From IMG/VR virus record IMGVR_UViG_3300046791_000499, positions 1 to 64,000 of that record: 64,000 nt of DNA, one strand, 5' to 3'. This DNA is from a virus. Positions 2,920 through 27,312 of the stretch are shown one piece after another (the stretch's first letter is position 1; every line of letters starts with the position of its first letter). The notes under the pieces were generated by a model that ran no database searches, was not told where the DNA came from, and saw only the letters and a list, made by a program, of their open reading frames with translations. Made by a program: the position numbers and the translations under genes.

Positions 2920-3666
2920 GTGATCGAAGACGTCCAAGCTACCCGCGATGACCGTGAGATCCCCCTCGACCGCGCTGGGGTCTCTGGCCTCCGTCACCCG
3001 ATCACCGTGCTCGACTGGGCCTCGGGCCTGACCCAAGACACCGTTGGCGTGTTCACGGTGTCGGTGTCGCTTCCGTGCGAGCAAAAAGGCACGCACATGA
3101 GCCGCTTCGTCGAGGTGCTCAACGATCACCACGGCGAGGTCACCATGCGGACGATCCCGGTGATCCTGCACGATCTGCGCAAGCGGCTGTACGCAAACCG
3201 CGTGGCACTCGAAGTGACGTTCCCCTACTTCATGGATCGCATCGCCCCGGTCAGCGGCGCGGCGGCGCTCATGGACTACGAGACCACGTTCACCGGTGCG
3301 ACGGACGGGACCTGCGATGACTTCGTGCTACGCGTGAAGGTCCCGGTCACGAGCTTGTGCCCGTGCAGCAAGGCCATCTCCGAGCGTGGCGCCCACAATC
3401 AGCGCGGCTACATCGCCATCTCGGTCCGCTCGGTCGTCACGCTTCCGCCCGTCAACCCGGCGCTGATCTGGATCGAGGAACTCGTGGAGTACGCCGAGCG
3501 ATCCGCCTCGGCTCCCGTCTACCCGCTGCTCAAGCGCGTCGACGAGAAGTTCGTCACCGAGCAGGCGTACGACAACCCCGTCTTCGTCGAGGACATGGTG
3601 CGCAACACCGCTCGGCGATTGATGGATGATCCGCGCGTTGCCTGGTTCGAGGTCCACGCCGAGAAG
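2920..3666 (+). pseudogene. folE2: GTP cyclohydrolase FolE2 (GCYH-IB), 5' part
   Basis: FolE2 converts GTP to dihydroneopterin triphosphate, the first step to 7-deazaguanines. Family marks: the N-terminal DVQATRDDREIPLDRAGV and the metal/active-site stretch VPVTSLCPCSKAIS followed by GAHNQRG. The protein reads normally to FEVHAE (3663). It should then continue IESIHNHSAF, but the frame runs into the 3' half of dpdA, read out of frame to 4005. The missing end lies at 22779-22862 inside tnpB. Unless the join is an assembly error, the product has lost its conserved C-terminus. Confidence 0.9.
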
Positions 3667-3668
3667 AT

Positions 3669-5054
3669 GACCAACTGCTCCGAGTACTGCGCGCGGTGGA
3701 CTCGGTTCGGCTGCCGTCGACCAGGCTGCATCTGCTCGGCGTCACGAGGCCAGGCAACTACGGCGAGTACGTCGCGCGCGGCGTGGCCTCGATCGACTCG
3801 ACGTCTTCGCTGCGCCGGTCGTGGATGGATCGCAAGGCCAACTACTTCTACGGCGGCACCAGCTATTGCGCGCTTCGGATCCCACCGGCGAATTCGAAGC
3901 GGGTCCACGGGCGCATCGGCTCGGGCGAGATCAACGGCGACTCCGCCCGCGTGCTCGAGGAGGCCGCGCTCGCGGCCGTCGCCGCGTTCGACCGCGAGGA
4001 AATGAGCGCCGCCGAGACGCTCGACGTCTTGCTCGCCTACCAGGCCATCCACAGTCCTGACGATGACCGCCGATCCGACTATGCACGCACGCTGAGCGCC
4101 AAGCCTTGGGCCCGGTGCAAGTGCCGGATCTGCGCGCGGCTCGGACACCACGTGATCCTGCTCCGGGGTGCCGAGCGCAACCGGCTCCGCGGCTTTCACA
4201 ACGTAGGCAGGTTCTACGGATCGATGCTGCGCGAGCTGGGCGAGCCGACCCTCGTGCTCGTCGGCTGCGGCGAGGCCAAGCGCAAAGACGCGGGCCCGGC
4301 CAAGGACATCTACACCGGCTCGCTCTACCGCGCGCACACCAAGTTCGCAAACCGGTACCGCGCGCCGGTTCGGATTTTGTCCGCATTGCACGGCGTGCTC
4401 GATCCCGCCAAGGTGATCGAGCCCTACAACAAGGTCGTGCCGAAGCATGGGCCCGAGCGCAGCGCGTGGGGATCGATGATCACCGAGCAGCTCGCCGAGA
4501 TCGTCGAGCCCGGCTCCACGGTCGTGGCCCTCGCGGGAGAGCGGTACCTCGGGTGGATTGGCGACGCCACCGGGCTCACGGTCGAGCAGCCGCTCGCGGG
4601 GATGACCACCGGCAAGAGGCTCGAGTACGTGGCCGGCCAGCCAGCCGAGGAGGCGCGGCCGGTTCGGTCCGGCGCCCCGATCGCGTGGGACTTCTTTTGG
4701 ACCACGTACCGCAGCAGCCTGCGCGGTGAAGCGATCGCGGAGTACTGGACCCGTAACCCCAGCCACACGGCTCGGCTCGATCTTCCCAGCGACACCCCAC
4801 TTCACGAGGCGATCGCAGCCGCGCGCGATGCCGGCCTGTTCGGCAAGGGCTCTCCGCGAACCGGGGTGTTCGAGATCCAGAACGACCTCGGGATCTACTG
4901 GGCCCCGGCCGGGTTCCTCAACATCGGGCTCGCACGGCCTGACCGGGTTCGGTTCATCTCCTGGGATGACGCCGAGCAGGCCGAGGGCAGGGGCGAAGAT
5001 CATCTCTCCAACCCGGGCCTCGGCGTCACGGTGGCGGAGATGGTTGCAGCATGA
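3669..5054 (+). pseudogene. dpdA: DpdA-like 7-deazaguanine transglycosylase, 3' part, fused to YaaA/DUF6884-like domain
   Basis: DpdA proteins are TGT-related enzymes that exchange guanine in DNA for a 7-deazaguanine. In the native frame from 3669 (DQLLRVLRAV) the second half of the TGT barrel is present: HLLGVTR, the nucleophile motif VASIDSTSSLRRSW (equivalent to the TGT Asp), then the zinc site CKCRIC with a His in RLRGFHN. A second domain follows (~residue 160 on: LVGCGEAKRK, ALHGVLDP), like YaaA/DUF6884. The first half of the barrel is absent here and lies at 22989-23582. As it stands only GTG 3696 could start translation, giving a truncated enzyme. The stop overlaps the next ATG. Confidence 0.88.
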
Positions 5055-16069: not shown

Positions 16070-17263
16070 GTGACCCATGTGACAGACGTCGACTGGTTCA
16101 ATATCAAGGCCGCGGCGTGGATTTACCGGCTGCCAGAGTCACGGAAGGGCCTATGCGCCGGGTGCAAGGTCATCATCCAAATCCTCTGGAACCGAGTCAA
16201 CGGTTCGGTGGAGTCCGACACTACGCACGCCCAGTCCCCGTGGGTCTCCGTGGAGACGCTTGCCGAGCAATGCGGGGCCAAGCCGGACACCGTTCAGGCG
16301 AGGCTCGACAAGCTGACGGCTCTCGGTTGGATCCGTAGGCACAAGGGTCGGCGCCTGCTCGCGTGGGGGCGTCCGTTCCCCAAGCCAGAGGCCAGTCCGG
16401 GCCTGGCGGATTCACCAGAGGCAGCCAGTGTCAGCGAGACCGGGCCAGGATTCGAGTCCTCCACAAGTGAAGCCGGGCGCCGGGATTCGAGTCCTCCCGC
16501 GCCGGGATTCGAGTCCTCCCGCGCCGGGATTCGAGTCCTCCCGCGCCGGGATTCGAGTCCCGAGGATCAACCCAATAACCAAGCCATTGAACCAAGCCAA
16601 GACCAACCCAAGGTCGATGAGACTCTCGCCCCAGCGAGTAGGCCGAGTCTGCTGACGGACACTGCGCCACCCGCGAGGCGTCGGCGCAAGCGCGTCGACT
16701 CCACGCAAGAGTCTCTGCCCATACCCGGCACCGAACCGCCGGAGCAGGTCAAGGCCGACCAGGCCCAGCTTGTGGCGGATCGCCTGTGGTCTCGGCAGGC
16801 CGAGACCCGCGCGGCCCTCAAGATGCCGGTGACCGGTACGAAGTCGGTGCTCGATGCCAACCGCCGAGGGAAAATCAACACGCGGATCGCCGACTACGGT
16901 CTCGACGCCTGTTATCGTGTGATCGAGGTCGATGCTTCGGATTGCTTGAAGCAGGGTCGCGGTGGGTCGTCTTGGGGATACTGGAATCTCGACACCCCAT
17001 TCAGGAACGCGACAAATTTTGAACAGCGGCTCAACCGCTGGCGAGATGACGGAAAGCACGTCCCGTGGGGTGCACCATCGCGACGAGACCAGTCTTGGTC
17101 GCAGGGCTCCGGGATCGGCTCCCGCGAAGCACACCGAGCCCAGCGCGAGAAGTTGGAGCGCGAGGCCACCGAGCGGGGCGAGACCATCCCGGACGAGGTC
17201 GGCTACTGCGACAACGACGATGACTGCAGCAACGATGAGCGCATGGAGGCGGTCCACCAATGA
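16070..17263 (+). CDS. Replication initiator-like protein (winged helix, iteron-containing gene)
   Basis: 397 residues from GTG 16070 with GGAGG five bases upstream. Residues ~20-100 form a winged-helix domain (VSVETLAEQCGAKPDTVQAR, then LGWIRRHKGRRLL) like phage O/RepA-type initiators. Residues ~120-190 are a disordered Ser/Pro linker in which five DNA repeats lie. The C-terminal part has GYWNLDTPF and a charged tail. Gene order (initiator, helicase loader, DnaB) is that of lambda O-P modules, where the origin lies within the O gene. Linked to the loader gene by ATGA overlap. Confidence 0.72.
   Translation: MTHVTDVDWFNIKAAAWIYRLPESRKGLCAGCKVIIQILWNRVNGSVESDTTHAQSPWVSVETLAEQCGAKPDTVQARLDKLTALGWIRRHKGRRLLAWGRPFPKPEASPGLADSPEAASVSETGPGFESSTSEAGRRDSSPPAPGFESSRAGIRVLPRRDSSPEDQPNNQAIEPSQDQPKVDETLAPASRPSLLTDTAPPARRRRKRVDSTQESLPIPGTEPPEQVKADQAQLVADRLWSRQAETRAALKMPVTGTKSVLDANRRGKINTRIADYGLDACYRVIEVDASDCLKQGRGGSSWGYWNLDTPFRNATNFEQRLNRWRDDGKHVPWGAPSRRDQSWSQGSGIGSREAHRAQREKLEREATERGETIPDEVGYCDNDDDCSNDERMEAVHQ
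16448..16560 (+). repeat. Five iterons: candidate replication origin
   Basis: The 12-mer GGATTCGAGTCC occurs at 16448, 16483, 16505, 16527 and 16549; the last four are at exact 22-base steps (two helical turns) with CTCCCGCGCC between. The 12-mer is an imperfect palindrome (GGA, TCGA, TCC). Because 22 is not a multiple of three, successive copies are read in different frames (GFESS, RRDSS, GIRVL), so the DNA, not the peptide, is conserved. Confidence 0.8.
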
Positions 17264-21935: not shown

Positions 21936-22778
21936 ATGTTGATTCGGACGTACAAATACCCGCTGAGGCCAACTGCTGCCCAGCGGGCAGGGTTCGAGCG
22001 GTGGCTCGGCCAGAGCTGCGAACTCTACAATGCCGCGCTGGAGCAGCGTATTACTGGGTACCGACGTACGGGCAAGAGCGTCACATACAACGACCAAACG
22101 AGGCAACTGACCGAGTTGCGCAACGCTGAGCCGGAGTTCGGAGCGTTGCCGGTCCGGGTCCAACGCTCGGCCCTGCGTCGGCTCGACAAAGCATTTCAGG
22201 CGTTCTTTGGTCGAGTGAAGTCCAAGGCATCGAAGGCAGGCTTCCCACGTTTTCGGGCGCGGGCGCGCTACGACACATTTGGCATAGGCCGGGTGGGGCC
22301 CCGGCTGGACCAGGCCGATTCGAGCACCGGCCACCTACGTGTGGCCGCTCTTGGCCTGGTCCGGTTTCGCATGCGCCACGAAATGATCGGAGACGTCCGA
22401 GACGTCACGATCACGAAAGACAGCCGGGGTCGGTGGTTCGTGTGCTTCGCCTGCGATGTGGGCGAAGCGCCGCCGAAACGAACGGTGACCACCGCGGTGG
22501 GCATCGACCTCGGGCTGTCGTCGTTCGCTACGCTCACCGACGGGTCCGAGATCGCAAACCCACGCCACACCCGGACCGCCGCCGAGTCGCTGGCTCGTGC
22601 GCAACGCGTACTCTCGCGCAAGTCGAGGGGCAGCCGCTCGCGGGCGAAAGCGAAGGCTGCGGTCGCCCGCGTGCACGAGCGCATCCGCAACGCGCGACGC
22701 GACTTCCACTACAAGACGGCGCGAGCGCTGGTCGAACGCTACGACCTCATCGCGCATGAAGATCTGTCGATCGCCAGG
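21936..22778 (+). pseudogene. tnpB: TnpB RNA-guided nuclease, N-terminal part
   Basis: TnpB is the RuvC-type nuclease of IS200/IS605 and IS607 elements. Present here: the N-terminal region (MLIRTYKYPLRPTAAQ, KAFQAFFGRVKSK), RuvC-I GIDLGLSSFATL with the catalytic Asp, and RuvC-II LIAHEDLSIAR with the Glu. After AGG (22778) the frame passes without stop into the folE2 C-terminus. The rest of TnpB resumes at 23583. Upstream (21890-21935) is unusually A/T-rich. No TnpA gene is seen. Confidence 0.9.
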
Positions 22779-22862
22779 AACATCGAGTCCATCCACAACC
22801 ACTCGGCCTTCGCCCAGGTTACGTGGTCGCGCGAGCACGGCTTCGTGGGGACCAGGCCATGA
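22779..22862 (+). pseudogene. folE2: FolE2 C-terminal fragment in frame with TnpB
   Basis: IESIHNHSAFAQVTW is the conserved FolE2 C-terminus, which is missing from the folE2 locus at 3666. It is fused in frame to TnpB residue Arg281. The stop TGA overlaps an ATG. Confidence 0.88.
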
Positions 22863-22988
22863 AGAACTCGGCTGCCAGCCGGTCGCCGCCCATCTCGTCG
22901 ACGATGATCCCGATCTCCCAACGGACCTGCTCCTGGTGAGCGTCTCGCTCGGCCCTGTTGCGCAGCCATGACGGCAAGCGCTTGGTCA
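22862..22988. repeat. Copy 2 of exact 127-base direct repeat
   Basis: Identical to bases 1-127. Its reading frame of sense is the minus strand, as in the secreted-protein gene, yet here it is wedged between the folE2 end and the dpdA beginning, so it looks out of place. Confidence 0.97.
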
Positions 22989-23582
22989 AGTTCTTCCTGC
23001 CCGATAGCCGCGACTCGGTCGACACCACGTTCGACTTCACCAAGGAGACCCGCTCGCCGGACCGGATCCCGCGCGATGAACTCTACATCCACGAGATGCT
23101 CGACCGATCCGTGGATGGGCTGCTCGTCTCCTACGCGGGGCTCCGCGATGGCAGGTACTCGGCCGCGGCTCGACGTCGGTTCATGCGTGAAGGCGCCCGT
23201 GGGTTCTTCCGCGCGGCTCCGTGGATGAGTTTCATGGGGGACCCCGGCGCGTTCTCCTACATCAAGGAGTCCGAGCCCCCGGTCACCGTCTCCGAGGTCG
23301 CCGAATTCTACGGGTCCGTGGGGATCGATCTCGGCATGGCCGTCGACCACATCGTGAGCGGGTACTCCGACGAGCTGTTCGAGGATCCCGATCCCGAGCA
23401 GCAGCGACGCTATGATCTGACGCTCGCGCTCGCCAGCGACTTTCTCGCGGCCGCGAAGCCCCACGCGTTCGAGCCCGTCGGCGTCGTCCAGGGTTGGAGC
23501 CCTGCCTCCTACGCTCGCGCCGCTGCCGAACTCCAGCGCATGGGCTACGGCTACCTCGCGCTCGGCGGCCTGGTCAGGCTCA
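22983..23582 (+). pseudogene. dpdA: DpdA-like transglycosylase, N-terminal part
   Basis: The frame reads VKFFLPDSRDSVDTTFDF, HEMLDRS, DGLLVSYAGL, then APWMSFMGDPGAFSYI and VGIDLGMAVDHIVSGYSD and GYLALGGLVRL, the first half of the TGT/DpdA barrel. It is truncated at the TnpB join (23583). TTG 22983 is the nearest start; the native start may have been lost at the repeat boundary. Joining CTCA (23579-23582) to ATGACC (3667) restores an uninterrupted DpdA frame. Confidence 0.88.
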
Positions 23583-23891
23583 ATGGTTCATGGAAACCTG
23601 GCAAAGAGCATCCACGACGTGGGTTGGGCTCAGTTCATCACGATCCTGCACTGCAAAGCGGAAGAAGCTGGCGTGCATGTGGTCGCGGTGGACCCCAGGA
23701 ATACCACGCGTGAGTGCTCGAACTGTGGTGCGATCGTCCCCAAAGGACTGGGCGATCGCATCCATTCCTGTGACTGCGGCCTGACGTTGGGGCGCGATCA
23801 CAACGCTGCAATTAATGTCCTTGCCCGTGGCTTACGGGCGGTACCCGGCGGTGACGTCGGACCAGGGCCGCATCTGCGGCAGAGCCCGTGA
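23583..23891 (+). pseudogene. tnpB: TnpB C-terminal part with zinc ribbon
   Basis: From ATG 23583: NLAKSIHDVGWAQF, VVAVDPRNTTRECSNCG, then HSCDCGLTLGRDHNAA, i.e. the RuvC-III Asp and the four-Cys zinc ribbon. Fused to 21936-22778 through AAG it makes a normal TnpB. A guide (omega) RNA would be expected at this 3' end, but I cannot define it. The stop overlaps the next start as GTGA. Confidence 0.88.
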
Positions 23892-25005: not shown

Positions 25006-25328
25006 TGGACACCACCCAAGCCGAACGACGTCAACAGCTACGAGACCAACAGCGAGTTCGCAAGGAGCAGGTGGCACAAGCCATCGCCCAAGGCAAGATC
25101 GACTCGGCCTTGGAGGATCTTGTCGGGCTCCGCGAGAAGACGACCCGCGCAGAGCAGAGGCTCGACCGCGCCGTGCTCGCCAAGGTCGCCGCCGCGAAGG
25201 ACGGGATCCAGGCCAACACGCTGCCGATGGAGTCGCTCGACCGGCTTGGCGAACAATTGGAGATCATCGACGGCGGGCTCGTGCGCGTTCGCAAGCAAGC
25301 GCCGGCCGAGACGGAGGCAGCCGAGTGA
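25002..25328 (+). CDS. Coiled-coil hypothetical protein
   Basis: 108 residues; a long Gln/Arg/Glu helix (QQLRDQQRVRKEQVAQAI) followed by LREKTTRAEQRLDRAV suggests a coiled coil. Located directly before the RecE/RecT-type pair and GTGA-coupled to it. Could regulate or bridge the recombinase; unproven. Confidence 0.6.
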   Translation: MMDTTQAERRQQLRDQQRVRKEQVAQAIAQGKIDSALEDLVGLREKTTRAEQRLDRAVLAKVAAAKDGIQANTLPMESLDRLGEQLEIIDGGLVRVRKQAPAETEAAE

Positions 25329-26374
25329 ACGCCGTCGCCACGCTCGGCACGGCCGACCAGATCGCAGACCTCGAACAACGGTTCGGGGATCTCGGCTTCC
25401 CCGGGCTCGACCTCTCCAGCATCGAACCCGGCGAAGCGCGGCTCGTGCCATGGACCGCCGAGGAGTACTTCGCGGACACCCTGTGCACGTCGCGATCGCA
25501 ACTGGACATCTTGCGAGTGCGAGGCCCACAAGCCTATGCGAACCGCCACGCCGCCGGCGATCGATCCACACCCGCCAAGCGGCTGGGCCGACTGCTCCAC
25601 ATGCGCGTGCTCGAGCCCCAGAGGTGGGCATCGCTGCTCGCACCGCCGAGGCCGTACCTGCCCATGGGTCCCACCCGTCCTGCACACGCCTATGGCAAGG
25701 CCAAGAAAGGTACGCCCGCCAAGATCGCGTTCGACCAGTGGAAGGCCGAAGACGAAGCGTGGAAGGCCGAGTGCGCCGAGCTGATGGCCGAGTGGGAGGG
25801 CAGCATCGGCCCCGACTCGATCATCATGACCGACGGCGAGGCCGCCAAGGTCGAGGGCATGGCGACCGCGATCGAAGGCCACGACTTCGCCCGCGGCATC
25901 CTCCACGAATTCCCCGACGGCGTGAACGAACAGGCGATCGTGTGGCGGCACCCCGGAACGGGTGTGCTGATCCGTGTACTCGCCGATCGACTGGTCCCCT
26001 ACGCCGATATCCGCGATCGGCCGTGCTGGTTCGTACCCGATCTCAAAACGACCAATGACCCGAGCGAAGACGCCTTCATGCGCTCGATCGTCAAGTTCGG
26101 GTACCACCGCCAAGGGGCCCTCTACCACGACGCCGTGCAGGCGCTGTACCCCGGCGAGATCGTGACCTTCGTGTTCGTGGCGGTCCGCAACGAGCCCGAC
26201 TACGAGGCGGCCACCTACCATCTCGGCATCGACGAACTCGCGTGCGGGCGCCGGCAGTACGAGAACACGCTACGAGAATTGGTGAGTCGGAAGGAATCCG
26301 GCAACTGGCGCGCCGGTTGGCAGAACGGGTTGCGCATGATGACGCTGCCCTCCTACGAGTACGAAAAGCCATGA
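25325..26374 (+). CDS. RecE-like PD-(D/E)xK exonuclease (DUF3799 type)
   Basis: 349 residues from GTG 25325. Early SRSQLDILR, then RLGRLLHMRVLEP (His of the RecB-like domain), VLIRVLADRLVPY, and WFVPDLKTTNDPSEDAF with the PD...K catalytic core (Asp, Lys), then YHRQGALYHDAV. This order is that of RecE-type/Cas4-like nucleases that digest 5' ends to leave 3' single strands for RecT. ATGA-coupled to recT. Confidence 0.82.
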   Translation: MNAVATLGTADQIADLEQRFGDLGFPGLDLSSIEPGEARLVPWTAEEYFADTLCTSRSQLDILRVRGPQAYANRHAAGDRSTPAKRLGRLLHMRVLEPQRWASLLAPPRPYLPMGPTRPAHAYGKAKKGTPAKIAFDQWKAEDEAWKAECAELMAEWEGSIGPDSIIMTDGEAAKVEGMATAIEGHDFARGILHEFPDGVNEQAIVWRHPGTGVLIRVLADRLVPYADIRDRPCWFVPDLKTTNDPSEDAFMRSIVKFGYHRQGALYHDAVQALYPGEIVTFVFVAVRNEPDYEAATYHLGIDELACGRRQYENTLRELVSRKESGNWRAGWQNGLRMMTLPSYEYEKP

Positions 26375-27312
26375 GTGAATCCATCGCAACCCAACAGCAC
26401 CAACATCCACCGACCCCACTCGAGACCTTCAAGCTCGAGATCAAGGGGCTGAGCAAACTCGTGCAGGCGCTGCTCAAGGCCGACGACGCAGGCCGCGGGC
26501 GCTGGCTCGCGGAGGTGTTCGCGGCCGTGCGAGCGAACCCGAAGTTGCTGCAGGCCGACCGGCCCTCGCTCCTGGACTCGATCATCCAAGCGGCATCGCT
26601 GGGGCTGAGCGTCAACCCTCTCCTCGGCGAAGCGTGGCTCATCCCACGCAAGAAGAACTTCAAGGACCGGAACGACCAGTGGCAGTCGCTCGTGCTGGTC
26701 AGCAACCAGACGGGCAAGAACGGCCTGATCAAGATGGGCTGGCGGTCCAAAATGCTCGACGCCATCCACACCGACACGGTCTACGACGGCGAGATGTTCG
26801 ACTACGAATCTGGGTCGAACCCCTACGTCAAGCACCGGCCGGACGTGTACGGGAAACTCCGAACCGGACTCACCAAAGACATCATCGCTGCCTATGCCTC
26901 CGTCTATGTGATCGGATCCACACGGCCAATCATCAAGGTTCTCGGGGCCGAGGAGTTGTACCGGATCGCGGCGATGTCCGGCAATCCGAACGACAACGAA
27001 TGGTCCGACGTGTGGACCGACCACTTCGCCGAAATGGCAGAGGGCGCAGCGCTCAAGCGCGTGTGCAAGAAGCTGCCGCGCTCCGACGAGCTTCGCGACA
27101 TGCACCTGTCCGTCGAGCGCGAGACGATGATCGACGTGGGCAAGGAGCCGCCACAGAGCGAGTACACGGAGCAGATTGCCGCCGCGATAGAGGCATCTGC
27201 CGCTCAACTGGTCCCCGAACCCGAGCAAGATGGCCAGTCGCCTGCAGCGAGCGCAAGGCCAAGGCCACAACCTCGCCGAACCGAGCCCACGCCACCGCCC
27301 GCACAGGAGTAG
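26371..27312 (+). CDS. recT: RecT-family single-strand annealing protein
   Basis: 313 residues. SIIQAASLGLSVNPLLGEAWLIP is the conserved RecT motif, followed by LIKMGWRS, the EGAALKRVCKKLP helix and an acidic/Pro-rich tail. It anneals single strands made by the adjacent exonuclease. Together they form a Red-like recombination pathway for replication or repair. Confidence 0.92.
   Translation: MSESIATQQHQHPPTPLETFKLEIKGLSKLVQALLKADDAGRGRWLAEVFAAVRANPKLLQADRPSLLDSIIQAASLGLSVNPLLGEAWLIPRKKNFKDRNDQWQSLVLVSNQTGKNGLIKMGWRSKMLDAIHTDTVYDGEMFDYESGSNPYVKHRPDVYGKLRTGLTKDIIAAYASVYVIGSTRPIIKVLGAEELYRIAAMSGNPNDNEWSDVWTDHFAEMAEGAALKRVCKKLPRSDELRDMHLSVERETMIDVGKEPPQSEYTEQIAAAIEASAAQLVPEPEQDGQSPAASARPRPQPRRTEPTPPPAQE

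Follow-up and report, generated by a model that had tools for sequence, protein, structure and literature searches.

Relocation of an 804-base block splits folE2, dpdA and tnpB in a phage genome record

Three genes, i.e., folE2, dpdA and tnpB, are split by the relocation of a single 804-base block in the window analysed here, which comprises bases 1–64,000 of a virus record with a full length of 143,093 bases. The FolE2 C-terminus (NIESIHNH...) and the N-terminal third of DpdA (201 of its 661 residues) were found inside tnpB, and both were missing from the folE2/dpdA locus at 3664–3667, which upholds the displacement described in an earlier note on this DNA. Specifically, folE2 begins at 2920 and stops short after the residues HAE (3663), and dpdA picks up mid-protein at 3667. 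The change from the order A-S-B-C to A-B-S-C (with S the 0.8-kb block and B a stretch of 19.1 kb), also proposed in that note, was borne out by the restoration of the three proteins and, because these restorations coincide, the relocation is not a chance resemblance. An ordinary accident is the likeliest origin of this arrangement, whether it befell the phage itself or arose during assembly. Our preferred reading, held at about an even chance, is a one-off, unprogrammed rearrangement in the sequenced phage DNA, by end joining or replication template switching.

The record carries an exact 119-base repeat at its ends and was therefore handled as a circle of 142,974 bases. By its profile matches to tail sheath, major head and portal proteins, it looks like the genome of a tailed phage with a contractile tail, and a home-made coding scan found intact genes throughout the 143-kb record outside the two spots where foreign joins occur. 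Two repeats were seen in passing. At 16477–16560, within a replication-initiation-like gene (16070–17263), a 22-base unit is perfectly repeated in tandem 3.8 times, with a period that is not a multiple of three. Outside the window, an inverted repeat of 76 bases (88% identical; 138135–138210 and 140183–140258) is situated near the starts of genes on opposite strands, and is perhaps a shared promoter or operator.

When the block was returned to its place, restored FolE2 matched the full Pfam GCHY-1 profile (2–260 of 260, 287 bits), and its residues 2–262 aligned unbroken across the junction to relative L012 in tblastn. This match and this alignment identify the 5′ part of folE2 (2920–3663, plus strand) as the native partner of the relocated tail. 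Restored DpdA yielded a weak Pfam TGT match at residues 94–249 (27.9 bits, with a cut-off of 26.3) and a DUF6884 match at residues 396–521. Its residues 1–388 aligned unbroken across the junction to MT835580.1 at 217 bits in tblastn, and a further search gave 205 bits for the restored protein against this record, compared with 81 bits for the C-terminal part alone; this 3′ part, left behind at 3667–5054 (plus strand), contains the rest of the TGT-like domain and the fused DUF6884 by profiles and tblastn. The TGT-like domain is continuous over the junction, and DpdA is a predicted DNA base-exchange enzyme. It is the fused DUF6884 part alone that produces the hits in mycobacteriophage and Caulobacter phage records. 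Since FolE2 and DpdA are present and QueC was not found in the 143-kb record, the base precursor for DNA modification may be supplied by the host.

The single tnpB of the record was likewise restored, with OrfB_IS605 (residues 172–281) and TNB (297–361) in one frame and residues 2–365 aligning unbroken across the junction to Thermus phage phiLo in tblastn. Its 5′ part (21936–22778) bears the HTH and OrfB_IS605 domains and its 3′ part (23583–23891) the Cas12f1-like TNB domain, both on the plus strand and both assigned via profiles and tblastn. None of the three split genes shows decay.

Two versions of the tnpB junction hold the TnpB frame: AGG-AAG-ATG, for which 802 bases are taken out and one G is put in, and AGG-ATG, for which 804 bases (22779–23582, 268 codons) are taken out and none added, so that TnpB reads EDLSIARMVHGNLAKSIHDVGW. 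The earlier note had adopted the former, with a block of 802 bases at 22781–23582, TnpB restored as LSIAR-K-MVHGN, and the interval between GAA and ATG exchanged as 802 bases against one G. This was contradicted by a comparison of 81 TnpB homologues (80 relatives from genomes and one phage protein), in which the fifth residue after E-D-L was M in 68, L in 11 and I in 2, a position where the extra codon would put a K. Moreover, 64 of the 81 scored higher against TnpB without the K and only four scored lower. TnpB relative L066 reads EDLTITRMVHGNLAKSILDAGW and shares the motif RMVHGNLAKSI with the phage protein; some relatives do have one extra residue in this loop, but further along, between MV and LA. 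While the domain profiles above were searched with the version containing the extra K, the frame is also kept without it.

Since all 81 homologues have M, L or I and most score higher without the K, tnpB was opened between AGG and ATG with no base lost. Of the block as previously described, the end at 23582 therefore stands and the true extent becomes 804 bases (22779–23582, plus strand), in frame between the tnpB AGG and ATG; similarly, the claim that its return restores three frames holds for FolE2, DpdA and TnpB, the last with a junction lacking the K. A double recombination that reciprocally swaps the GAA–ATG intervals, as the earlier note had proposed, demands precisely the TnpB that the homologues speak against, and is very unlikely. 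One G does lie between GAA and ATG at folE2, and 3-mer and 4-mer counts are unchanged by the swap, yet no exchange made between one and the same pair of 3-base anchors could alter these counts. As tnpB lost nothing, the AAG at 3664–3666, delimited by join comparison at the point where 804 bases are gone from folE2/dpdA, is left as an unexplained remnant.

The block is itself interrupted by a copy that the earlier note had overlooked. Bases 22862–22987 (plus strand) exactly match contig bases 1–126, or form an identical run of 127 bp if one shared A is counted. This copy lies between the folE2 tail with its stop codon (22779–22862, plus strand, placed by tblastn alignment; NIESIHNHSAFAQVTWSREHGFVGTRP before the stop) and the dpdA head from its second codon onwards (22988–23582, plus strand; AAGTTCTTCCTGCCC..., KFFLPD...), and separates the dpdA ATG (22859–22861, plus strand) from AAGTTC, i.e., before the second codon. 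With the copy removed, the FolE2 stop overlaps the DpdA start (CCATGAAGTTC) and DpdA begins MKFFLPDSRD, aligned to MT835580.1 from residue 1. At their native home (1–126), the same bases belong to a minus-strand frame that is open from 476 back across base 1, over the circular junction. An older copy of this kind was observed outside the window, where 84 bases (97.6% identical, direct orientation; 68449–68532 and 78056–78139 of the record) from a 347-aa minus-strand gene recur 9.6 kb off within a small reading frame, which suggests that such captures happened earlier in the lineage.

The contig begins precisely where the copied 126-mer begins. Short-read graph assemblers leave end repeats of maxK or maxK-1 at a repeat, and 119 is a value in one MEGAHIT k list given in the same source (PMC10914622). 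Because the contig start and the 119-base terminal repeat fit such an assembler end, the copy was probably already in the reads rather than added later, even if the fit is imperfect in that the contig continues uninterrupted across the other copy. An alteration of the record by computer after assembly, e.g., through a script for rotating or joining contigs that duplicated the first bases, would explain why the nested copy is identical to the start of the contig, but leaves the move of the 804-base block and its exact boundaries unexplained. The window also agrees with the stored record, although this would be equally true if both derived from an altered file, and we regard such an alteration as barely credible.

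In total, five foreign joins were identified, all in direct orientation, with 0–3 bp of overlap and confined to two spots. The folE2/dpdA scar has the filler AAG; one base is shared at the tnpB/folE2 tail join (G) and one at the copy/dpdA head join, and three are shared at the folE2 tail/copy join and at the dpdA head/tnpB join (ATG). The micro-homology that had been claimed for both block joins is thus of three bases at one of them but only a single base at the other, and not three at each. Since a random join has a 6.8% chance of sharing three or more bases (P = 0.068 per join), these overlaps are mild evidence at best. The overlaps of 0–3 bases, the short filler and the lack of target-site repeats agree with the signature of end joining or template switching (0–5 shared bases or short filler), which is not specific. 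Within the AAG scar, AA could be native and duplicated, with the G as filler rather than native sequence. A 13-base match on the minus strand at 102724–102736 was considered as a template for AAG and dismissed as not significant (P = 0.1). A wider imperfect match between the folE2 and tnpB breakpoints (CGCCnnGAAnATnG; score 6, P = 0.0175) was computed with the extra G of the earlier note and is not relied on.

Apart from the moved and common pieces, no exact word of more than about 11 bases is shared between the native breakpoints. This bears on the possibility that the arrangement is a chimeric assembly or library artefact, in which nothing is amiss in the phage genome itself, and its pieces are misordered in a contig that also repeats 126 bases of its own start. 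Three genes are broken together with no decay, the arrangement is known from one record only, and the contig opens with the very 126 bases that were copied, so that the second anomaly touches the assembly end. Amplified libraries can moreover yield chimeras with short overlaps; those of multiple displacement amplification join at short complementary stretches, as here, and can mislead assembly (PMC1855051). However, 85% of these chimeras are inverted (PMC1855051), whereas the five joins described here are all direct. In addition, because shared words of about 11 bases are far shorter than a k of about 119, a tangle in the assembly graph cannot swap the breakpoints. A repeat of at least k at the wrong joins is absent for the 804-base block, and for the nested copy one is present, in the form of the 127 bases repeated at the end of the contig. 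Finally, three joins that consume the same block exactly would be unlikely to come from independent chimeric reads. Taken together, we consider an artefact a serious contender at somewhat less than an even chance, with a real one-off event slightly likelier as a matter of judgement rather than measurement.

The earlier note had held that programmed rearrangement, one-off event and artefact would all look alike. The latter two indeed both stand, whereas a programmed or reversible rearrangement that toggles DNA modification (FolE2 and DpdA) or TnpB has neither sites, nor a recombinase, nor a second copy to its credit, and is exceedingly unlikely. The clean, in-frame insertion in tnpB would suit such a switch, as would the exact correspondence between the block, nested copy aside, and the part that folE2/dpdA lacks. 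Nevertheless, the joins have no repeats or recombination sites, with only one and three shared bases at those of the block, and the unrelated nested copy breaks dpdA further, so that moving the block back together with this copy leaves the dpdA start still displaced. No match to Phage_integrase or Resolvase was found among the phage genes of the 143-kb record, with host enzymes outside this search, nor was there any match in the record to Y1_Tnp (the TnpA of IS200/IS605 transposition); the integrase, resolvase and Y1 searches did match in control genomes. No second example or arrangement came to light either. A search of IMG/VR, in which near records may have been hidden, turned up neither a further instance of the block nor one of the restored dpdA junction; relatives were found neither in viral contigs, through DpdA and DnaB, nor in genomes, through DpdA, and the DNA search gave no similar phages. 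That a host or otherwise unidentified recombinase needing almost no match reversibly shuffles the block, thereby disabling the 7-deazaguanine genes and TnpB together, is next to negligible in our estimate.

In the preferred one-off rearrangement, folE2, dpdA and tnpB would be the points at which the DNA broke or replication switched template, after which three pieces would be rejoined in a new order, with A followed by the 19.1-kb B, the 0.8-kb S and then C. The same event, or one close to it, would also have captured the 126-base copy of a distant piece where folE2 meets dpdA. Three breaks and their rejoining, by end joining or by template switching, would be the least demanding account of the clean 268-codon insertion in tnpB, the direct joins, the block order and the restoration of three proteins. 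Excision of a 19.9-kb circle and its reinsertion at nearly the same base was considered but not favoured, since it calls for a second random event that is very unlikely to fall so near the first, and three simultaneous breaks need fewer coincidences. Genes for a RecE-like exonuclease and a RecT-like annealing protein are located at 25325–27312, 1.4 kb past tnpB, and RecET is able to join matches of 5–13 bp (PMC2327257). No Ku was found among the phage genes of the 143-kb record. Ku-independent end-joining routes exist. Against the one-off reading, the 1–3 shared bases are near chance and fewer than the 5–15 bp seen in the phage precedents, the AAG at folE2 lacks a demonstrated source, and the absence of decay fits a very recent event and an artefact equally.

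Comparable joining of phage DNA at short matches is seen when T4 and T7 escape Cas9 through microhomology joining of cut DNA, with the T7 cases at non-essential genes (PMC11294054). Those events are deletions, however, with matches of 8–15 bp in T7, while the present case combines the reordering of a block and a distant capture with overlaps of 0–3 bp. Template switching of the FoSTeS/MMBIR type gives several joins in one place, overlaps of 2–5 bp and captured distant pieces (PMC2621351), much as observed here. Nevertheless, this model mainly concerns human copy-number changes, and simple copying does not explain why the phage block is missing at its source.

With regard to gene content, the FolE2 gene adjoining that of a TGT-like DpdA resembles the phage 7-deazaguanine gene sets in which DpdA accompanies FolE, QueD, QueE and QueC (PMC6884629), from which it differs in that FolE2 replaces FolE, DpdA is fused to DUF6884 and, as noted, QueC is missing from the genes found. 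The expected outcome of the rearrangement would be the loss of three accessory functions, i.e., those of FolE2 and DpdA in 7-deazaguanine DNA modification and that of TnpB. Should the arrangement be an artefact, it illustrates that a closed and seemingly complete viral contig can hold scrambled genes that are called as novel fusions. If it is real, it shows, resolved to the base, a multi-join rearrangement that a phage genome underwent in nature, and would suggest that in its niche this phage can do without DNA modification and TnpB.
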